From Polytrichum commune (taxonomy: Eukaryota > Streptophyta > Polytrichopsida > Polytrichales > Polytrichaceae): a DNA stretch of 64,000 nucleotides. A program made the position numbers and the translations under genes. Below the pieces are notes generated by a model that was not told the origin of the DNA, did not search any database, and saw nothing but the letters and a program-made list of their open reading frames with translations. Shown here piece by piece: positions 5,686-56,406 of the stretch. Each line of letters opens with the position of its first letter. Position 1 is the stretch's first letter. The stretch spans positions 10,910,001 to 10,974,000 of the forward strand of contig OX485804.1 in assembly GCA_950295325.1 (NCBI GenBank). The letters run 5' to 3'.

Positions 5686-6290
5686 GGAGATGGAACTTTG
5701 TGAGCGATGGGATATGGAGAGGAGGAAGTTCGATTTACCGTGCTTAATTTGGGGTATCTGAATGAATCGGGAGTGGGGGTGATGATGATCAAGTTTCAGA
5801 TTGTTGTGTTTGGATTGTTGAATTGTGATCATAGTGCGGCTAGGTCCTCCTCCGGAATAGTGGATGAGGATGATGACGAGGGATGGTGATCGAGTCACCC
5901 TGCTGGATGATTGAATTAAGGCTCTCATGTAGTTCTAGTTTTCATGAATTGTGTTTATTTGCACTGTTGAATCGGTGCAGTGGTCATATATATTGAGGAT
6001 AAGTCCTCCCCCGGAGCAGGTGGAATGATGGCGACGGCGAAATTTTTGTTCTAGTTCTAGTTCTAATTTTGAACGTATGCAGGAGATGAGAAACTCTGTG
6101 AGCGATGGAACGGACGCGAGGAAGCTGTTGGGTTCACGGTGCCTTGAGGAATCTGAATGAATCAGGACAATGAAGACAGTGCAGGGCACGGGCCCGATTA
6201 TTGAGTTGGAGTCGGCGAATTGTGATCATATTAATTGAGGATGAGTTCTCCCGCGGAGAAGTGGATTATGGTGATGGTGAAATGGGTCCT
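5686..6290 (+). repeat. Triplicated leader and start-codon region of the glycosyltransferase gene
   Basis: The sequence around the glycosyltransferase start (6216-6290: 'gaattgtgatcat...attgaggATGAGttctcccgcggag') is preceded by two decayed relatives: 5974-6050 ('gtcatatatattgaggATAAGtcctcccccggag') and 5817-5895 ('gaattgtgatcat...ggctaGgtcctcctccgga'). The segment just upstream is also doubled ('tgcaggagatg...ctgaatgaatc' at 5684-5770 and 6078-6163). The initiator ATG is intact only in the last copy; it reads ATA in the middle one. Unequal duplication of the 5' end is the simplest explanation. Confidence 0.7.
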
Positions 6291-9200
6291 GCCTCTGTCG
6301 GTGCTGTTGGTTCTGACGGTGCTCCTGGGCAGCCGCGACTGGATCTTCGACACGCTCCAGCTTACAACTACAAGCTGGCAGCAGCTGGTCGATAATTCAG
6401 AATTGCGAAGACGAGGAAACGCGTCTGGATGGATACAGGAAGTGAATTCATACTTCCCGGAGGCGGGCGAGGCGGACGTGCGGGAGTGCCGCGCGTATCG
6501 AAGCTCGTACAATCGATCCTACGGCGAGTGGCTGTCGCTGGGCACCAATGCTAGCGACGAGGAGGTCCTGTGCGCCGCCCACCATGCCGCCACGCGGCCG
6601 ATGGCGGCAGCACGCGGCCAGCCTCGCGTCGCCTTCCTCTTCCTGGTGCTCGGTATGTGATCGAATCCCGCCCAATGTATGTAGATGCTTTGTTGGCTCC
6701 CCTACACTACACTAAATAGGAGATATTTAGTGTTTGATTATACTTAGTGTTGTTACCCCCCTTCTCTGCTCAACACTAATTTTCAATTCCTTGACAATTA
6801 GAGTTAGACATAAATGTGCTGCTACTTTCCCTATGGCCACCTCCCTTATTATATATATTTTTCATATCCTTACTAACACTAAATTCAAACATGTAACTTC
6901 CACATATTACCATAGTTGATATTTAGTGTTTGGATTTACATTTGATGTTACTTACTTTCATAGGGTTATTGATATTTAGTGTTTGCGTTCGCATTTAGTG
7001 TATCAAACACTAAATATCCTATTCAATGTACTTCATAAGGCATGCGGGTGTTACTTGATTATTTTTCTTAGTCGGACACCTAGATTTGATCGGTGGGTGG
7101 GTTGGCGAGGATCCAAGAACAAGCACCATAGGGCAAATGTTGGAAAGAGGTTAACTTGTGTCTTCATTTTTTGCCTGTTTGTTCCACAATTGGGAGGACC
7201 TATGTATGCAATTAAGAAAATCACGAAACATGCCATATGGTAATCATAACTAAATCAGAGCAGATTGATCTCCAATCCAATGTTTGCTTACGGCTTATCA
7301 TAGATTTGCTAATGCAACGTAGATTTCATCGTGTAAATGTAATCGGTAGAAGTCAGAGAACATGAAAAACAAATCGAATAACACCCACATACCTTTGAGG
7401 ATGTCTAAGGAAGTGAGAACATATTATCACTACCTTCGGTTTTTGAGGCTTTTGAGGTATGATGTCATGTTTGGCCCTCCATCATAATTAAAATGACTCG
7501 TCGGCCACTGTTTATGTTTTCATATTTGCCCAACCGATGCTTTTAAACAAAGAGATGCCCTGATGCATAGCATAATTGTGTCCTCAATTTAAATGCCTCC
7601 AGTAGGAGTGGCAAAAATTACTCGCTCCCATGGGTTTAGGGTTTACGTACGTGGGCATAGTGTAGGAACTTCCAACTCCACAAATAATTATGAACTCTTG
7701 TTGGATTCTTGTTGGATCCAATCCGAAATTGCCTCAGTTAGCAATTGCCAACTTTATCATGCAAAATCAAAGTTGAGATGCAATAGTCATAGAAGTTTAA
7801 AGCAAATGTTCTCTTTTCTTTATAATTGGATCATATGGGCCCTCCCAATTTTGTTGATAATTGGACCTAATATGAGGACATAGTTCGATCTCATAATTTA
7901 CAAGTGGGCTTTTGGTGTTCCTTAACTACGAGACTTGCAATATATGCCACACAAATATAAGTGTCCAATGAAGAAGAGTGACCACATATGGGGTCCAAAT
8001 GCAAGGCCATGTTCATTCAATCATATAAGCGACATGAAGGAACCACCATTTGTAGGTCAATGTGAACTAACATGTGGTTATTTACATGTAGAATGGAGCA
8101 TGAAAATGATGACTCCCAACTAGGGTAGTCATTGTAATGTGTGTGGATGCTTGAGAATGAAAGAAAACTACCAAGTAGGTTACTCCCGGCGACTCTTATG
8201 AGAGAACAACCTTTTTGAAAAGGCCTTCTTCTTTGTACTAGTGCAATCACAAATTAGCACTCGAGTCATCAAGGGCATAACACTTTACTTTTGTCATGAG
8301 ACGGGTCCCCTTTTCCCCCTTTTTGCTAAACCCTTTTGGTGTGGGAGAGGGTACTAGCGAGAGTGATCAAGTTTTGTTACAAACCCGACAAACTAGAGTA
8401 GATAGAAAGGCCCACACACTCTCCTATGCCAAAAATACTTATCAAAGGGATCCATGTCATGACAAAACTGTATTGTTTTTTGACCACAATGTTTCAATGC
8501 AAACTTGTGATTGCACAAATGCCAAGGAGAAGTCCTCTTGAAGTAGGTTACATTCTTATGTATGTGCACACAAATTGTATGTCATCTCTCAAACATATAA
8601 GTGTTAGAATGACTAACCAACTTGGGAGTTCACTACTTGTTACATGCAACTATCCATATATATTAATTTTAGTTCGTTTACAAGTGACACTTCCCCCCAT
8701 AGTTCACATGGTTTAAATGAACCAACGAGCAATAGGAGATAGTTTATGGTTCTCCATTTCCAGTTATCCTAAACCACCATCTCACATTGCAACCCCCTAA
8801 TAGTGTTGCAATCTTTAGGAGCTTGATGGACACTAAGGTCAAGGTGACGCTTGGATCTCATGCAATAGTTTTTGTGGATTTGCCAAATCGACCTCTCAAT
8901 AAGATGAGAAAATAGTAACTTTCTTGAGCTTTTACTTCAATTCGTCAAGAAATTGACATGCTCAAGTGACAGAGACAAAGAGAAACAAAATGTGAAGTTT
9001 GAAGGGGCTTGTACTATAGCTTCGAGATTGTGTCCTTTGTCTTTTTCTTTTTCATTTTCATTTTCTTTAAAAAAAAACAGTACCGCAACGGAGGTGTGTG
9101 GCCACTTCCTAGTTTTTCAATTGAGTAGATAGAAGATTTTTCGGTTAAAAAAATCGAATCACTAACCACTGTATTGAATTTGACTGCTTCTCCAATAGCT

Positions 9201-12055
9201 TTTGGTGTTTTAGGGTGTTTTTGGATCAACTTTTGTCCTCTGTTGCTCTACTAGTGCACATGTGTTTCCCTGAAATGGAAAGTGAGTTGACCCTTGACAA
9301 TTCAATAGACTAAGGGCCACTTCACACAAGAACCAATTGCCAGGATCATGAAAATCTAAGGGCCCTTGAAAATTATCCAAAGGTCATGCCATGGGAACTA
9401 GAAATCCATTTTTGTAATTGATGGGCTCTCAAGTTTAGTGTAAAGTGAAAGTGAACCATGTCGAGGGACCGCAACATGTATTATGGATAATCCAAATAGT
9501 ACATGTAATATGGGACCCCATCAAGGCAATATAATAAATTTTAACAACCAATGGCAATTTAATTGCTTGCAAGGGCCCTTATATTTGCATTAGACCCACC
9601 TCTATGATGGGCCTAATACAATATCCGGTAGACCGTGAAAATTTATCCACTTGGTGGCATACATGATGCAATATACATTTTTGCATCATTTGGATTTCTT
9701 TGGTTCCTCAAGCCCTCATGATCTAATGTAAAGTGAACTTACACCACCTACGGTTTCTTGACCAATCACATAATTTTCGTATCATGGGTCAAGGGCCCTC
9801 AAGCTATAGTGTAAAGCGGCACCAAGTTTCATATCAAAGGTAATTAGATCATTCCCTAGAGCTTTGTGGTCGCCACCAATTACCACATTCCTAGGCAGAT
9901 GAATGTCCATCCAGAACCAAGCCCCCAAATTAAGTCCTATTGGACCCATTCTCAAGGCCTTTGATGCTCATTTTGGTGTCAAATGAGTTAATAGTAGTAC
10001 ACTCAGAGCTTGGCAAGCCAATCAATTTCAGGGGCTGCAAAGGCTAGTTGATCAAGCAAGTGCTTCTTGTGTGGCACTAATGTCCACCGAAGTCTTCCCG
10101 ACCGCAGAATTTGCAACATGCAAGTTAGGTAGGGCAATGAATTTTGTCTCATTTGTGAAGGATTGTTCAAGAGAGGTTGAGGTAATATTATTGCAAGACA
10201 AACCCCCTAAACATAAAGAACTTTTATACTGGGTTAGGACGGTGGGGTAGATAATTAAATATAAACGCCAACTCCTGATGGAGCAAGCGTGGATGAAGAG
10301 CCTCTTAGCATGCGGGCTACTGCCCTCTTTCGAGGGTGGGATGGTAGTGCATATAAAAGTCAACATTTATATCTTTGTCATATGGTGATCTTTGCAGTCA
10401 ACCTTTGACATTGCATTGTTGGGAGTAAGAGTGAGCTCTTGGGTTAGGCCAACTGAGAGCCGGGGTGAACCAACCCGTGCAATGGTTCCTTGGAGGCAAG
10501 GGTTTAGGCATCCAACAAGGAATGAGTGTATGGGTTGGTTCACCCAAATCCCAAATGAAGGGGTTGAGCTCAAGCTTGCAAGTTTGGTGGGCTTGCAAGG
10601 TAAAAGACTTCAACCCCTACATGTGCCTAAGATGGTGAAACTTTGTCTCAAGATTGGTCCCCACTTTTATTGAATCGAACTTGTAGTCATGTCAAGTTCG
10701 ATGACTCCAAGTTCAAATTCTAACTTGAACTTGAAATCAGTCCAAACTAAGAAGAAACCAAGCTCCACCATCTTGGGCACACATAAAAGCTCATATTCAT
10801 TTTACGTTGGCTCACCAAACTTGCAAGCTCGCTCGATCAAGCCCTACAAAACGATTTAGACTCTGGTAGAGTGTACATACATTGCTTCGGAGACCGGCGG
10901 AGTTCTTCTTCTTCTTCTTCGATGTCTTTCAAGTTCCATTCGAATGATCATCTGGTAGTGAATTGCATGTGCAGATGAGGTGCCCCTCGAGGAATTGTGG
11001 CGTGCTTTCTTCACTGGCCACAAAGGGAAATACTCCCTCTACGTTCACCCCCACCATGCTAATCACGTCTACTCTCCCGCCTCCATCTTCTTCGGGCGCA
11101 AAATACCCAGCAGGCCTCTCCGCCGCTTCACAATCTCGGAGCCCGCGGCTGTCCGCCGGGCCCTTGCATACGCGCTCCTCGACACGGCGGTGCCCAACAT
11201 TTGGTTCACGATCCAGTCCGAGACCTCAATCCCCGTGCGCCCGTTCCCGTTTACGTACAACTACCTCCGGGGCTCCAATCTGAGCTTCGTGGAGGCGTTC
11301 TACCCGTGGGACTGGTGGCGGAAGCAATGGCGTGACAAACCGCAGGTGAGGGACAATGTCCAGGGAGATTTTGGACATAATCAGTCAAGATCCAAGTATT
11401 TCCCAAGTCCAACCGGTTACATGTTGATATATTTGATTTCCGTTTCCGTTTATTGCTTTAAGGTACATTCCAAAAATTCTTTCTTGAATGGTCGGCGATT
11501 TTTTCCTAGTATCTTGAACTTGAACCGGCTATTTCTCAAACTCAACCGGCCCCTCTGTATTTAGCGTTTGAATCTCCCTGTTTGTAGGTGAGGGACGACC
11601 AGATGCGCAAGGGCGAGCTATGGATCACCGTCCACCGGCGCCACGCGGGCCTCATCGTGGGCGATTTCCGCATCTTCCCCAAGTTCGAGTTGGAGTGGAA
11701 GCCGAACGCAATTTCTTGCGAGATTTACGTCCCCACTTTGATGTACATTGCGGACCCGTCCGGCATAGCCAATCGAAGTGTCATGTACGTGAACTGGAGC
11801 ACGCACTCCGGCCACCCACGGCTTTTTAATTCAACCAACATCAACGCGACGCTTATCCGCGCGATCCAGGAGCAGCGTGAAAATGTGGATGGAATGTACG
11901 GACATACACATCACATTGGGCACGAGGATGAGCTCTCGTCATGCCTATATAACGGCAGCCTAAATGCGTCGTGTTGGTTGTTTGCTCGCAAGTTTGCGGG
12001 TGGAGCTGCTGATCTCAGAGCATTGGTGGCAGTGAAGGAAGTTCTCGGATACTAA
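6241..12055 (+). CDS. GT14 / BC10-type (DUF266, core-2/I-branching-like) glycosyltransferase, 3 exons, 416 aa
   Basis: Exons: 6241-6652, 10975-11345 and 11588-12055. The lengths sum to 1251 nt, an intact frame of 416 residues ending in TAA. The ATG at 6241 is the first in frame. Residues about 9-30 form one hydrophobic anchor, as expected of a type II Golgi membrane protein. The lumenal domain has the plant BC10 block order: 'RVAFLFLVLGDEVPLEELW', 'GKYSLYVHP', 'FFGRKIPS', 'ALLDTA...SETSIPV', 'SFVEAFY', 'MRKGELWITVHRRHA', 'NRSVMYVNWS' and a final 'CWLFARKF'. Family members are putative Golgi glycosyltransferases, rice BC10 being linked to wall properties; the donor and acceptor of this one are unknown. 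Intron 1 (4322 bp) carries MITEs. Intron 2 (11346-11587, 242 bp) is a transposable element plus its target duplication. Family call confident; biochemical role inferred. Confidence 0.9.
6715..7024. mobile_element. F5-like TIR element (MITE) in glycosyltransferase intron 1
   Basis: The ends are inverted copies: the left end reads 'gatatttagtgtttgatt' and the right end reads 'atcaaacactaaatatcc'. The element is about 310 bp and AT-rich with no coding capacity. The 'tatttagtgt' terminal signature recurs at 22.4, 41.6 and 58.0 kb. I could not fix a target-site duplication. Confidence 0.6.
7030..7395 (-). mobile_element. F2 MITE, inverted copy, in glycosyltransferase intron 1
   Basis: This is a roughly 365-bp copy of the F2 repeat in reverse orientation. 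Its ends, 'gcgggtgttacttgatt' and (reverse complement of the right side) 'gggtgttattcgatttg', are inverted repeats. Internal landmarks shared with other copies include 'catgttctc..acttctaccgatta', 'gttgcattagcaaatcta' and 'gatcctcaccgacccacac'. Other copies lie near 12.5, 15.7, 22.0, 35.5, 50.4 and 63.5 kb. Confidence 0.75.
7396..10559. other. Remainder of glycosyltransferase intron 1
   Basis: No coding exon is supported. Several short motifs of the type 'agtgtaaagtgaa' or 'agtgtaaagcggc' (near 9440, 9730 and 9810) recur at 14.99, 20.6 and 21.96 kb, suggesting decayed TIR elements of one family. Open frames on both strands here are short and unrelated to known proteins. Confidence 0.5.
10560..10850. 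mobile_element. F1 TIR element in glycosyltransferase intron 1
   Basis: The left arm begins 'ctcaagcttgcaagtttggt' and the right arm ends with its inverse, 'accaaacttgcaagctcg'. The inner parts of the arms are also complementary ('aagatggtgaaactttgtct' against 'ccaagctccaccatctt'), so the whole roughly 285-bp unit could fold as a long imperfect hairpin. Related copies sit in P450 intron 3 and upstream of the P450 gene. Confidence 0.7.
11354..11587 (+). mobile_element. F4 hAT-like MITE forming glycosyltransferase intron 2
   Basis: The element begins CAATGTCCAGGGAGATT and ends with the imperfect inverse AATCTCCCTGTTTGTAG, both 17 bp. It is flanked on both sides by GTGAGGGA (11346-11353 and 11588-11595), an 8-bp TSD. 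The left TSD copy starts exactly at the spliced-out GT, and the right copy is the first 8 nt of exon 3. Internal sequence ('caaccggttacatgttga', 'tatttctcaaactcaacc') matches the F4 copies at 12219-12429 and 55513-56406. Confidence 0.88.
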
Positions 12056-12218: not shown

Positions 12219-12429
12219 CAGTGAACGGGAGAACCGACTGCTACTTACAGATGAACAGGTTGAGTTTGAGAAATAACCAGTTGAAGTTCAAGACTTCAGG
12301 AAAAATTACCGATCATTTTAGAGGGATCCATGGAATGTACCTCAAATCAATAAAGACAACATGGAACCGGTTGGACTGGGAAACACTAGGATTTTGACCA
12401 ATTATGCTCAAAATCCTCCCGAGACGCTG
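12219..12429 (-). mobile_element. F4 hAT-like MITE with perfect TSD, 211 bp
   Basis: The termini are CAGTGAACGGGAG... and ...CCTCCCGAGACGCTG. The flanking 8-bp duplication is ACTTGGAG (12211-12218 and 12430-12437). It lies just downstream of the glycosyltransferase stop codon, in opposite orientation to the intron 2 copy. Shared internal blocks include 'tttgagaaataaccagttga' and the inverse of 'gtcaaaatcctagtgtttcc'. CAGNG ends with an 8-bp TSD are typical of hAT elements. Confidence 0.88.
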
Positions 12430-55512: not shown

Positions 55513-56406
55513 CAGTGGCCGGGGAGATTCTTGGGCACAGTGGGTCAAAATCCTAGTGTTTCCAACCAGAGTTCGGGAAGTTTTTGAAGCCTAAGTGGCT
55601 AATTGCCGGTAGTTGCTACGAAGGGTCGGATTTTTCCCAATTTACATCGCCAAGAGCCGGTCTTTTGTAAAATCAATCGGCCAATTGCCTATATTTTCAT
55701 ATTTTCATTGGCCAATATCCGATTAAATGGAATTCATATCGGCACTAATTGTTTAAAAGATGTATGAAAAGTTATTAGAAATCATTTCTTAGTACAATAT
55801 CTTGAATAAGTGAAAAGAAAGGCATGTTCAAAACTTTAAATTTGAAGAGTTAATATCCTTGGCAAGAATTGAACCTAGCAATGCCTTCACCGCTTGAAGG
55901 CCAAGGGTCCCCCAATCCTTCATAGAAGCAATTGGATTTGGTCATGGAAAGGTTGCATAATTCAAAAAGTTTAAGGTTTAGGGTACTTCCTCAAGTGCAT
56001 CATTAGATGCCTCAGACAAATAGCGCTATGGATGCTTCCGGTTGAAATCCAGTAACTCACAAGAAGAATCGGCTACATTTCCGGGACATTTTTTGGTTCA
56101 TCGGCTAATTGCCGGAGGATTGAAATTACAGTCGGATTGCCATCCGATGGTTGGAAATTTGGACCAGCCATGAGGGGAAATCTATCAGCTGATAATGAAC
56201 TAGCCATCGGTTTTCCCCGAACATAGTTTCCAACTCCAACCAATTACATATTGTGATCTTCCGGTTTTCCTTCACTAATTTGAGGTATACACCACAGATG
56301 CCTCTAAACTGATCCGTTATTCTCCTGAAGTCTTGAACTTCAACCGGTTATTTCTCAAACTCAACCGGCTCATCTGTACCTAGAGGTGGGTTCTCCCTGT
56401 CCATTG
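55513..56406 (+). mobile_element. F4 hAT-like MITE interrupted by a 660-bp hAT element
   Basis: The ends are CAGTGGCCGGGGAGATT and ...GGTTCTCCCTGTCCATTG. The flanking 8-bp duplication is AAGAGGGT (55505-55512 and 56407-56414). The F4 body is split after 'gtcaaaatcctagtgtttcc' by the element at 55567-56226 plus its 8-bp TSD. Without the insert the F4 body is about 226 bp, like the intron 2 copy (234 bp) and the 12.2 kb copy (211 bp). Confidence 0.9.
55567..56226 (+). mobile_element. 660-bp non-autonomous hAT element, copy 1 (nested)
   Basis: It starts CAGAGTTCGGGAAG and ends TTTTCCCCGAACATAG. The TSD is TTTCCAAC (55559-55566 and 56227-56234). No transposase is encoded. A motif at 55857-55906 can fold with CCTTGGC/GCCAAGG closing arms and includes, in reverse complement, an RNA polymerase III box-B-like 'ggttcaattc'. 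The interior has repeated 'ggctaattgccgg' phrases near both ends. Confidence 0.95.

Follow-up and report, generated by a model that had tools for sequence, protein, structure and literature searches.

Intron 2 of a Branch glycosyltransferase gene in Polytrichum commune coincides with a hAT-type transposable element and one copy of its target site

We analysed a 64,000-nucleotide stretch of the Polytrichum commune genome (GenBank assembly GCA_950295325.1, contig OX485804.1; C2:10910001-10974000 in our numbering, hereafter the window), which belongs to a genome of 408 Mb, nearly all of it in seven large contigs. A gene of the window (6241-12055, forward strand) encodes a PF02485 Branch (Core-2/I-branching) glycosyltransferase, and its intron 2 consists of one 8-bp target-site copy, GTGAGGGA, and one complete 234-bp copy of a hAT-type miniature inverted-repeat transposable element (MITE) family, here called F4, with no base left over. 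Very probably, this element inserted into an uninterrupted exon and became intron 2, restoring the mRNA and the reading frame when spliced. The origin of new plant introns is an open question, and intron birth by this route has rarely been documented in land plants.

In the mechanism that we propose, a non-autonomous hAT-type MITE would have inserted, in sense orientation, into a single exon between ...CCGCAG and GTGAGGGA. The 8-bp target duplication would have set a near-consensus donor, CAG/GTGAGG (slashes mark splice junctions), at the left, while on the right the element's own terminus, TAG, would have come to abut the duplicated exon. The spliceosome would then remove the left target copy together with the whole element, and the original mRNA and reading frame would be restored.

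Anatomy of intron 2 and the uninterrupted site in paralogs

An earlier note on this DNA, made from the letters alone, had proposed that intron 2 equals the left target-site duplication plus a whole hAT-type MITE, that the donor is duplicated coding sequence and that the acceptor AG is formed by the final two bases of the element. Sequence, family alignment and shared termini bear this out (Table 1), and the motif GTRAG occurs only once in intron 2, at the left target-site copy. Removal of 11346-11587 restores the exon in phase 0 (KPQ-VRDDQ), as the note had also held, and gives an intact, complete model of 416 codons; because exons 1 and 2 sum to 783 nt, the intron site is in phase 0 after residue 261. 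The interval of the note has to be shortened, as its end at 11600 overruns into exon 3 and the intron ends at 11587. The part encoded by exons 2 and 3 matches PF02485 with an E-value of 6.3e-34 and 118.1 bits against a curated cut-off of 23.4, and we take the gene to be BC10-like.

Because the direct repeat around the element is 11 bp long when the adjoining letters are counted (AGGTGAGGGAC), the repeat alone cannot place the element ends, which are placed by the F4 family termini. The two 17-bp arms share the core CAGGGAGATT, as described earlier, although they form an imperfect inverted repeat in which 12 of 17 positions match. A short-repeat finder returned no match in 11000-12000, where the 8-bp duplication is under the default length of the tool. 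The locus has an introner-type geometry: the boundaries of element and intron coincide, and one splice site comes from the duplication.

The membership of the element in F4 is not due to chance. A genome search with it scored 40 places (its own included) of 2,362 candidates, all with E-values of 7.3e-32 or better; the best other copy reached 8.5e-42, and the 39 other places were 74-80% identical over the matched part. The family similarity claimed earlier thus survives proper alignment, both in this search and against a consensus of 55 copies. The left-end pattern had 2,524 matches genome-wide at up to 3 mismatches against 2 for a reversed control, a count that allows mismatches in GT and hence is not confined to GT targets; about 100 of these places were listed individually. 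The length of 234 bp and the high copy number are traits of a MITE.

The paralog search gave 18 matches, which fall in the window gene itself and in 12 further loci. The closest paralog, L021 (C3:56890021-56890863), is 79% identical over exons 2-3 and reads ...QWREDQAPQ/LREDQIRKG... across the site (here marked by the slash) in one exon. L021 has kept intron 1, also in phase 1, and a retroposed origin of this uninterrupted paralog is therefore ruled out. The match runs stop-free across the site (query residue 125) in nine of the 12 other loci (C3:56890021, C4:40069870, C3:45488893, C7:15242475, C2:41952682, C4:18745202, C1:55313536, C6:9976832 and C2:39751019), and C1:26813677 spans it with two internal stops; four of the spanning loci (L021-L024) were inspected as sequence and the other six by match range. 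The remaining two loci, C1:11353314 and C2:49670366 (L102 and L103), are broken nearby by an intron about 10 codons upstream of the site; in L102 the sequence shows this intron in phase 2, and in L103 the alignment puts it at a similar position. Among the 12 other paralogous loci of the same genome, an intron at the phase-0 site, for which the earlier note had suggested looking, was found in none. The AGGT of the insertion site is absent from L021 (CAACTACGGG), so that it arose on the window branch or was lost in L021.

Table 1. Features of the glycosyltransferase gene and F4 copies in the window (position 1 is the first letter of the window)
Feature	Position	Strand	Basis
Exon 1, coding, membrane anchor and stem	6241..6652	+	open frame, splice signals, phase as in paralog L021
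Intron 1, phase 1	6653-10974	+	phase same in paralog L021
Exon 2, coding, ends ...KPQ in phase 0	10975..11345	+	PF02485 match, paralog alignment
Intron 2, phase 0, 242 bp (splicing predicted)	11346-11587	+	sequence and gene model
Left target-site copy GTGAGGGA, gives 5′ splice site CAG/GTGAGG	11346..11353	+	identical to 11588-11595
Complete hAT-type MITE copy (F4), 234 bp; final two bases are the 3′ splice site AG	11354..11587	+	family alignment, shared termini, 8-bp duplications
Left terminal arm CAATGTCCAGGGAGATT	11354..11370	+	sequence; family left end CARTGTCYRGGGAGATT
In-frame TAG if intron 2 is retained	11562..11564	+	translation of unspliced frame; 72 codons open before the stop
Right terminal arm AATCTCCCTGTTTGTAG, with acceptor TAG	11571..11587	+	ATCTCCCYRTTYRTAG: 123 exact matches genome-wide, reversed control 0
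Exon 3, coding, including stop; first bases are the right target-site copy GTGAGGGA (11588-11595)	11588..12055	+	open frame, paralog alignment
Second F4 copy, perfect 8-bp duplication ACTTGGAG	12219-12429	-	sequence
Third F4 copy, split by other DNA, perfect 8-bp duplication AAGAGGGT	55513-56406	+	sequence

Age of the insertion, exon constraint and splice signals

The window copy differs from the majority consensus of the 55 copies at 38 of 225 aligned positions (83.1% identical). Its Kimura two-parameter distance (K2P) of 0.196 ranks 30th among the 55, with a median of 0.190, in a set chosen by likeness to the window copy or by flanks and thus not a random sample. A 33-nt private segment of the window copy had no match within 3 mismatches at any other place of the genome. 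The synonymous divergence (dS) from L021 is 0.83 for exon 2 and 1.03 for exon 3, or about 0.9 between the paralogs (0.46 per branch). Because of this depth and because the element is absent from L021, the insertion likely took place after the gene duplication.

The ratio of nonsynonymous to synonymous divergence (dN/dS) against L021, which averages both branches and the time before the insertion, is 0.17 for exon 2, 0.13 for exon 3 and a looser 0.52 for exon 1. Exon 3 shows 44 nonsynonymous differences for both branches together, whereas neutral drift at K 0.19 would by arithmetic predict about 60 over its 359 sites on the window branch alone. With L022 as outgroup, the amino-acid changes on the window branch and on the L021 branch number 8 and 10 in exon 1, 3 and 6 in exon 2, and 9 and 8 in exon 3; a further 46 changes in exon 1 and 32 in the other two exons could not be assigned to a branch. 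There is no speed-up of change on the window branch in the exons flanking the element. Under neutral decay at K 0.19, with the indel rate taken from the F4 family, exons 2 and 3 would escape a stop with a probability of 0.010 and a frameshift with 0.0003 (exon 3 alone, 0.086 and 0.012); at K 0.10, the values for both exons are 0.063 and 0.015. That the element is diverged, yet the flanking exons are intact and constrained, argues that the element is spliced out.

The donor CAG/GTGAGG fits the usual consensus CAG/GTRAGT at 8 of 9 positions, and the acceptor context at the element end is TTTGTAG/G. Predicted splicing from 11345 to 11588 would remove 242 nt and restore KPQ/VRDDQ. The T fraction of the last 40 nt is 0.40 in the window copy versus 0.275 in the consensus tail; this T-rich tail would help splicing and may be the product of ordinary decay of CG pairs. 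The GC content is 0.39 in the element versus 0.57 in exons 2 and 3, and a lower GC content of introns than of exons is the usual contrast in plant genes.

Several points weigh against an origin of intron 2 by insertion and splicing of the element. The removal of intron 2 from the mRNA is inferred from the DNA sequence. A competing AG (TATTTAG/CG) lies 23 nt upstream of the acceptor, a branch-point match to yTnAy was not found with the A inside the final 110 nt of the intron, and pyrimidines make up just 65% of the last 20 nt. A much younger insertion is compatible with the decay test, because at K 0.05 exons 2 and 3 would escape stops and frameshifts with probabilities of 0.23 and 0.12, and exon 3 alone would be intact with a probability of about 0.02 at K 0.10 (0.233 x 0.097) and about 0.14 at K 0.05 (0.458 x 0.311). 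The age from consensus divergence may be too high if the source copy had already diverged, and the decay test would then be weaker. The averaging in the dN/dS values counts on the same side.

The element might instead not be spliced efficiently, in which case the gene would be a recent pseudogene or would encode a truncated protein ending inside the element. We regard this as improbable: the unspliced frame does reach the TAG at 11562-11564, and the competing AG and the missing branch-point consensus would fit, but exon 3, which would then be untranslated, is intact for 155 codons at a dN/dS of 0.13 with no excess changes on the window branch, and the divergence of the window copy is close to the median of the 55. 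Regulated retention, with intron 2 removed in certain tissues and retained in others to yield a short form without exon 3, is compatible with the insertion origin; the frame that stays open 72 codons into intron 2 speaks in its favour, and we see it as a possibility that deserves some, if limited, credence.

Two further alternatives concern the origin of the intron itself. An older intron at the site, replaced or filled by the element, is very unlikely, even though two paralogous loci have an intron close by and, according to PMC4256211, grass intron losses exceed gains and apparent gains are often repeated losses. The neighbouring intron lies about 10 codons upstream and, in L102, is in phase 2, not phase 0, and we rejected an older intron on this position and phase; moreover, no intron sequence is left besides duplication and element, and the perfect 8-bp duplication of coding sequence means that the target was an exon. 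Tandem duplication of AGGT-bearing exon sequence, with a transposon likeness by chance, would account for the 11-bp repeat and for the AGGT at both junctions, as in the model presented in PMC3443670, but the repeats enclose 234 bp of a dispersed family, with E-values of 7.3e-32 or better at all 40 places scored and with ends shared in the family, and we give this explanation practically no credence.

The F4 family and the search for further introns

F4 copies commonly begin with CARTGTC and finish with TAG or ATTG, many with their own 8-bp duplication (CTCCTTCC in L003, CTAGTGGC in L014; also L063, L068, L071 and L082). The ends are not clean in every copy, as L006 and L019 finish otherwise. 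Exact right ends number 123 genome-wide for the TAG kind and 67 for the ATTG kind, with reversed controls of 0 for both, although the TAG pattern is the wider one and the counts are not on an equal footing. The window copy is of the TAG kind, and because copies at other targets also end in TAG, its acceptor AG belongs to the element and not to the target; many copies carry it. Only the TAG kind carries the splice acceptor; the ATTG kind is the closer inverted match to the left end CAATG. Among MITEs, an 8-bp target-site duplication and short terminal inverted repeats with 5′-CA..TG-3′ ends mark the hAT superfamily.

The duplication matches in 8 of 8 positions at the window copy and is perfect at both other F4 copies in the window, as noted earlier. 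Among the first 65 places fetched from the genome, 50 were recognisable F4 copies, and the duplication was perfect in 8 and had at most 1 mismatch in 19, with the far end picked partly by duplication match, which favours good duplications.

The stop codon of the gene is followed, after about 160 bp, by the reverse-oriented copy at 12219-12429, which could belong to the 3′ untranslated region. F4 left ends also occur in tandem, with a 226-bp spacing at C2:41504437, 41504663 and 41504889 (+) and a 231-bp spacing at C2:43727383 and 43727614; they share their flanking 8 letters (GTCATATA, GTTGACAT), as if element and duplication had been multiplied head to tail. Five left ends at C6:37176304, 37214505, 37255662, 37293808 and 37328797 (-) have the same preceding letters, GGTTGAGAT, at distances of 35-41 kb and are possibly a segmental array.

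The survey for further introns covered 77 other places. The first 65, chosen for a GT-type flank at the left or for AGGT at the right end, came from the left-end pattern with 2,524 matches and from a two-ended, a right-end and a further left-end list; the other 12 had a better donor or ATGAGGGA. A two-ended pattern gave 14 matches versus 23 for the reversed control and thus no enrichment, and four F4-like places besides the window were taken from it. The right-end list held 53 matches versus 30 for the control, of which 19 were not selected (the window, L020, which was in the set already, and 17 whose ends differed). The left-end list held 74 versus 3, of which 52 were not selected (51 with GTT or GTC, and the window); C3:3326461 and C6:668415, from this GTT/GTC group, entered via the two-ended pattern. 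The list with a better donor or ATGAGGGA held 46 matches versus 0. Because the reversed-control counts were high (30 for 53, 23 for 14), part of the fetched places are chance matches; 62 of the 77 are F4 copies by consensus match (50 of 65 and 12 of 12), 45 of them over at least 180 nt, and 26 reach both ends.

Eleven places, all of them F4 copies, resemble the window copy in geometry. Nine come from the first 65 and have an AG end together with a GT duplication that deviates at no more than one position (L050, L053, L063, L064, L065, L068, L070, L071 and L082), and two of the last 12 (L090 and L099) have a GT duplication of 8/8 and a TAG end. The joined flanks are open over the whole tested length in the window only (166 codons). 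The longest joined frames were 133 (L028) and 130 codons (L050) among the first 65 places, where 160 codons were tested, and L096 and L100 had open spans of 107 and 105 among the last 12. Ten of the 65 joined frames were compared with Pfam, which gave a kinase match for L034 (E 1.6e-4, below the curated cut-off), a MYB match for L050 (E 3.7e-7) and nothing better than E 0.1 for the rest. No second insertion into a coding exon was shown among these 77 places, judged by open-frame length and in ten cases by Pfam, from a family of thousands that is mostly unsurveyed.

L050 (C6:40187299-40188059, minus) lies in a MYB gene, with GTGGAGAT duplicated in 8 of 8 positions, a TAG end and a joined frame open for 130 codons. 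Its MYB match ends at residue 53 of 130, its donor context TT/GTGGAG is poor, and the letters before the element (GGTATGT) presumably begin the first intron that MYB genes usually have. On these grounds we rejected L050 as a second exon insertion and read it as an element within an older intron. L090 (C5:30344708-30345708, minus) has stops in all three forward frames, and L099 (C7:36689614-36690614, minus) likewise is without a clear coding frame. If transcribed, L050, L090 and L099 are possible introns of untranslated or other exons. In L034 (C3:18098051-18098811), the left duplication GTAATCAA starts exactly at the end of a receptor-kinase frame (...EFLNE), and apparently non-coding sequence follows the right copy GTAATCGG (6/8); this F4 copy may have inserted at the junction of exon and intron, with a second copy of the donor site as the result.

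As a rough estimate, about 2,500 copies, half of them in sense orientation, an assumed exonic fraction of 8%, 2 AGGT per 839 coding nt and roughly two-thirds of TAG kind give an expectation of 0.1-0.2 such events before selection. Because the expectation is this low and no second exon case was shown among the 77 places, intron 2 looks like a lucky one-off and not like an introner burst. The likeness to introners drawn by the earlier note therefore holds for the geometry of the window locus and does not extend to proliferation, which this partial survey did not show. That F4 is a land-plant introner whose TAG-ended copies, with their ready 3′ splice site, gave rise recurrently in the lineage to more introns outside the surveyed places, be it in coding or in untranslated exons, seems unlikely to us.

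Comparison with known systems

Ds insertions in maize are reportedly spliced as introns (attributed to Wessler and colleagues in 1987 and Giroux and colleagues in 1994) and are said to be mutant alleles. Like Ds, the window copy is a hAT element in a plant exon for which splicing from RNA is proposed; unlike in Ds, the window copy is diverged, its gene is constrained and the junction would restore the frame exactly. The rice catalase intron of Iwamoto and colleagues (1998) is reportedly attributed to a short interspersed nuclear element (SINE), a retroelement. It resembles intron 2 as a proposed plant intron of transposon origin and would differ in that the window element is a DNA transposon.

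In Symbiodinium, introners take the donor from the target duplication, and the acceptor lies inside the element itself (Gozashti et al. 2022, PMC9860276, Fig. 2B). Most such families leave the mRNA length unchanged and have a DNA transposon origin, and, as far as the accessible text of that study goes, introners were found in none of its land plants. The donor and acceptor are likewise split between duplication and element in intron 2, but the duplication is 4 bp in Symbiodinium and 8 bp, of hAT type, in the window, and many genes there compare with one case in the F4 survey. In the AGGT model of intron gain by transposon insertion, the target supplies both splice sites, and the same paper allows that the transposon itself carries splice sites (Yenerall and Zhou 2012, PMC3443670). 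Intron 2 shares with this model the insertion at AGGT in an exon, the AG/GT donor, the AG/G acceptor and the unchanged coding sequence, whereas its acceptor AG belongs to the element.

According to the accessible parts of the respective papers, hAT-like MITEs in carrot are tied to new splice variants (PMC8227079), and MITEs in Arabidopsis are spliced out with introns (PMC5454002). These are plant MITEs that alter, or are removed with, spliced transcripts, those of carrot being hAT-like; they involve variants, retention or location within introns, and an intron made of duplication plus element is not described in those parts. In our literature search, in which subscription journals were little covered, no case of a hAT MITE that had given rise to a fixed plant intron came up. 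PMC4256211 states that no proposed fixed intron gain is tied to a transposable element, with which Table 1 of PMC3443670 disagrees, as it places Oryza, with the rice catalase intron of Iwamoto et al. 1998, and Zea under transposon insertion.

Should the insertion be fixed, the locus would be a concrete counter-example to that statement on plant intron gain. Such an event needs a suitable target, the right orientation and a suitable element end all at once, which gives a testable reason for its rarity. The route is known in principle from maize Ds, from introners and from the printed model; the window case is unusual in being diverged with age, in a constrained gene and in a land plant, and its parts can still be told apart, with the donor from the target, the acceptor from the element and the uninterrupted site in a paralog.

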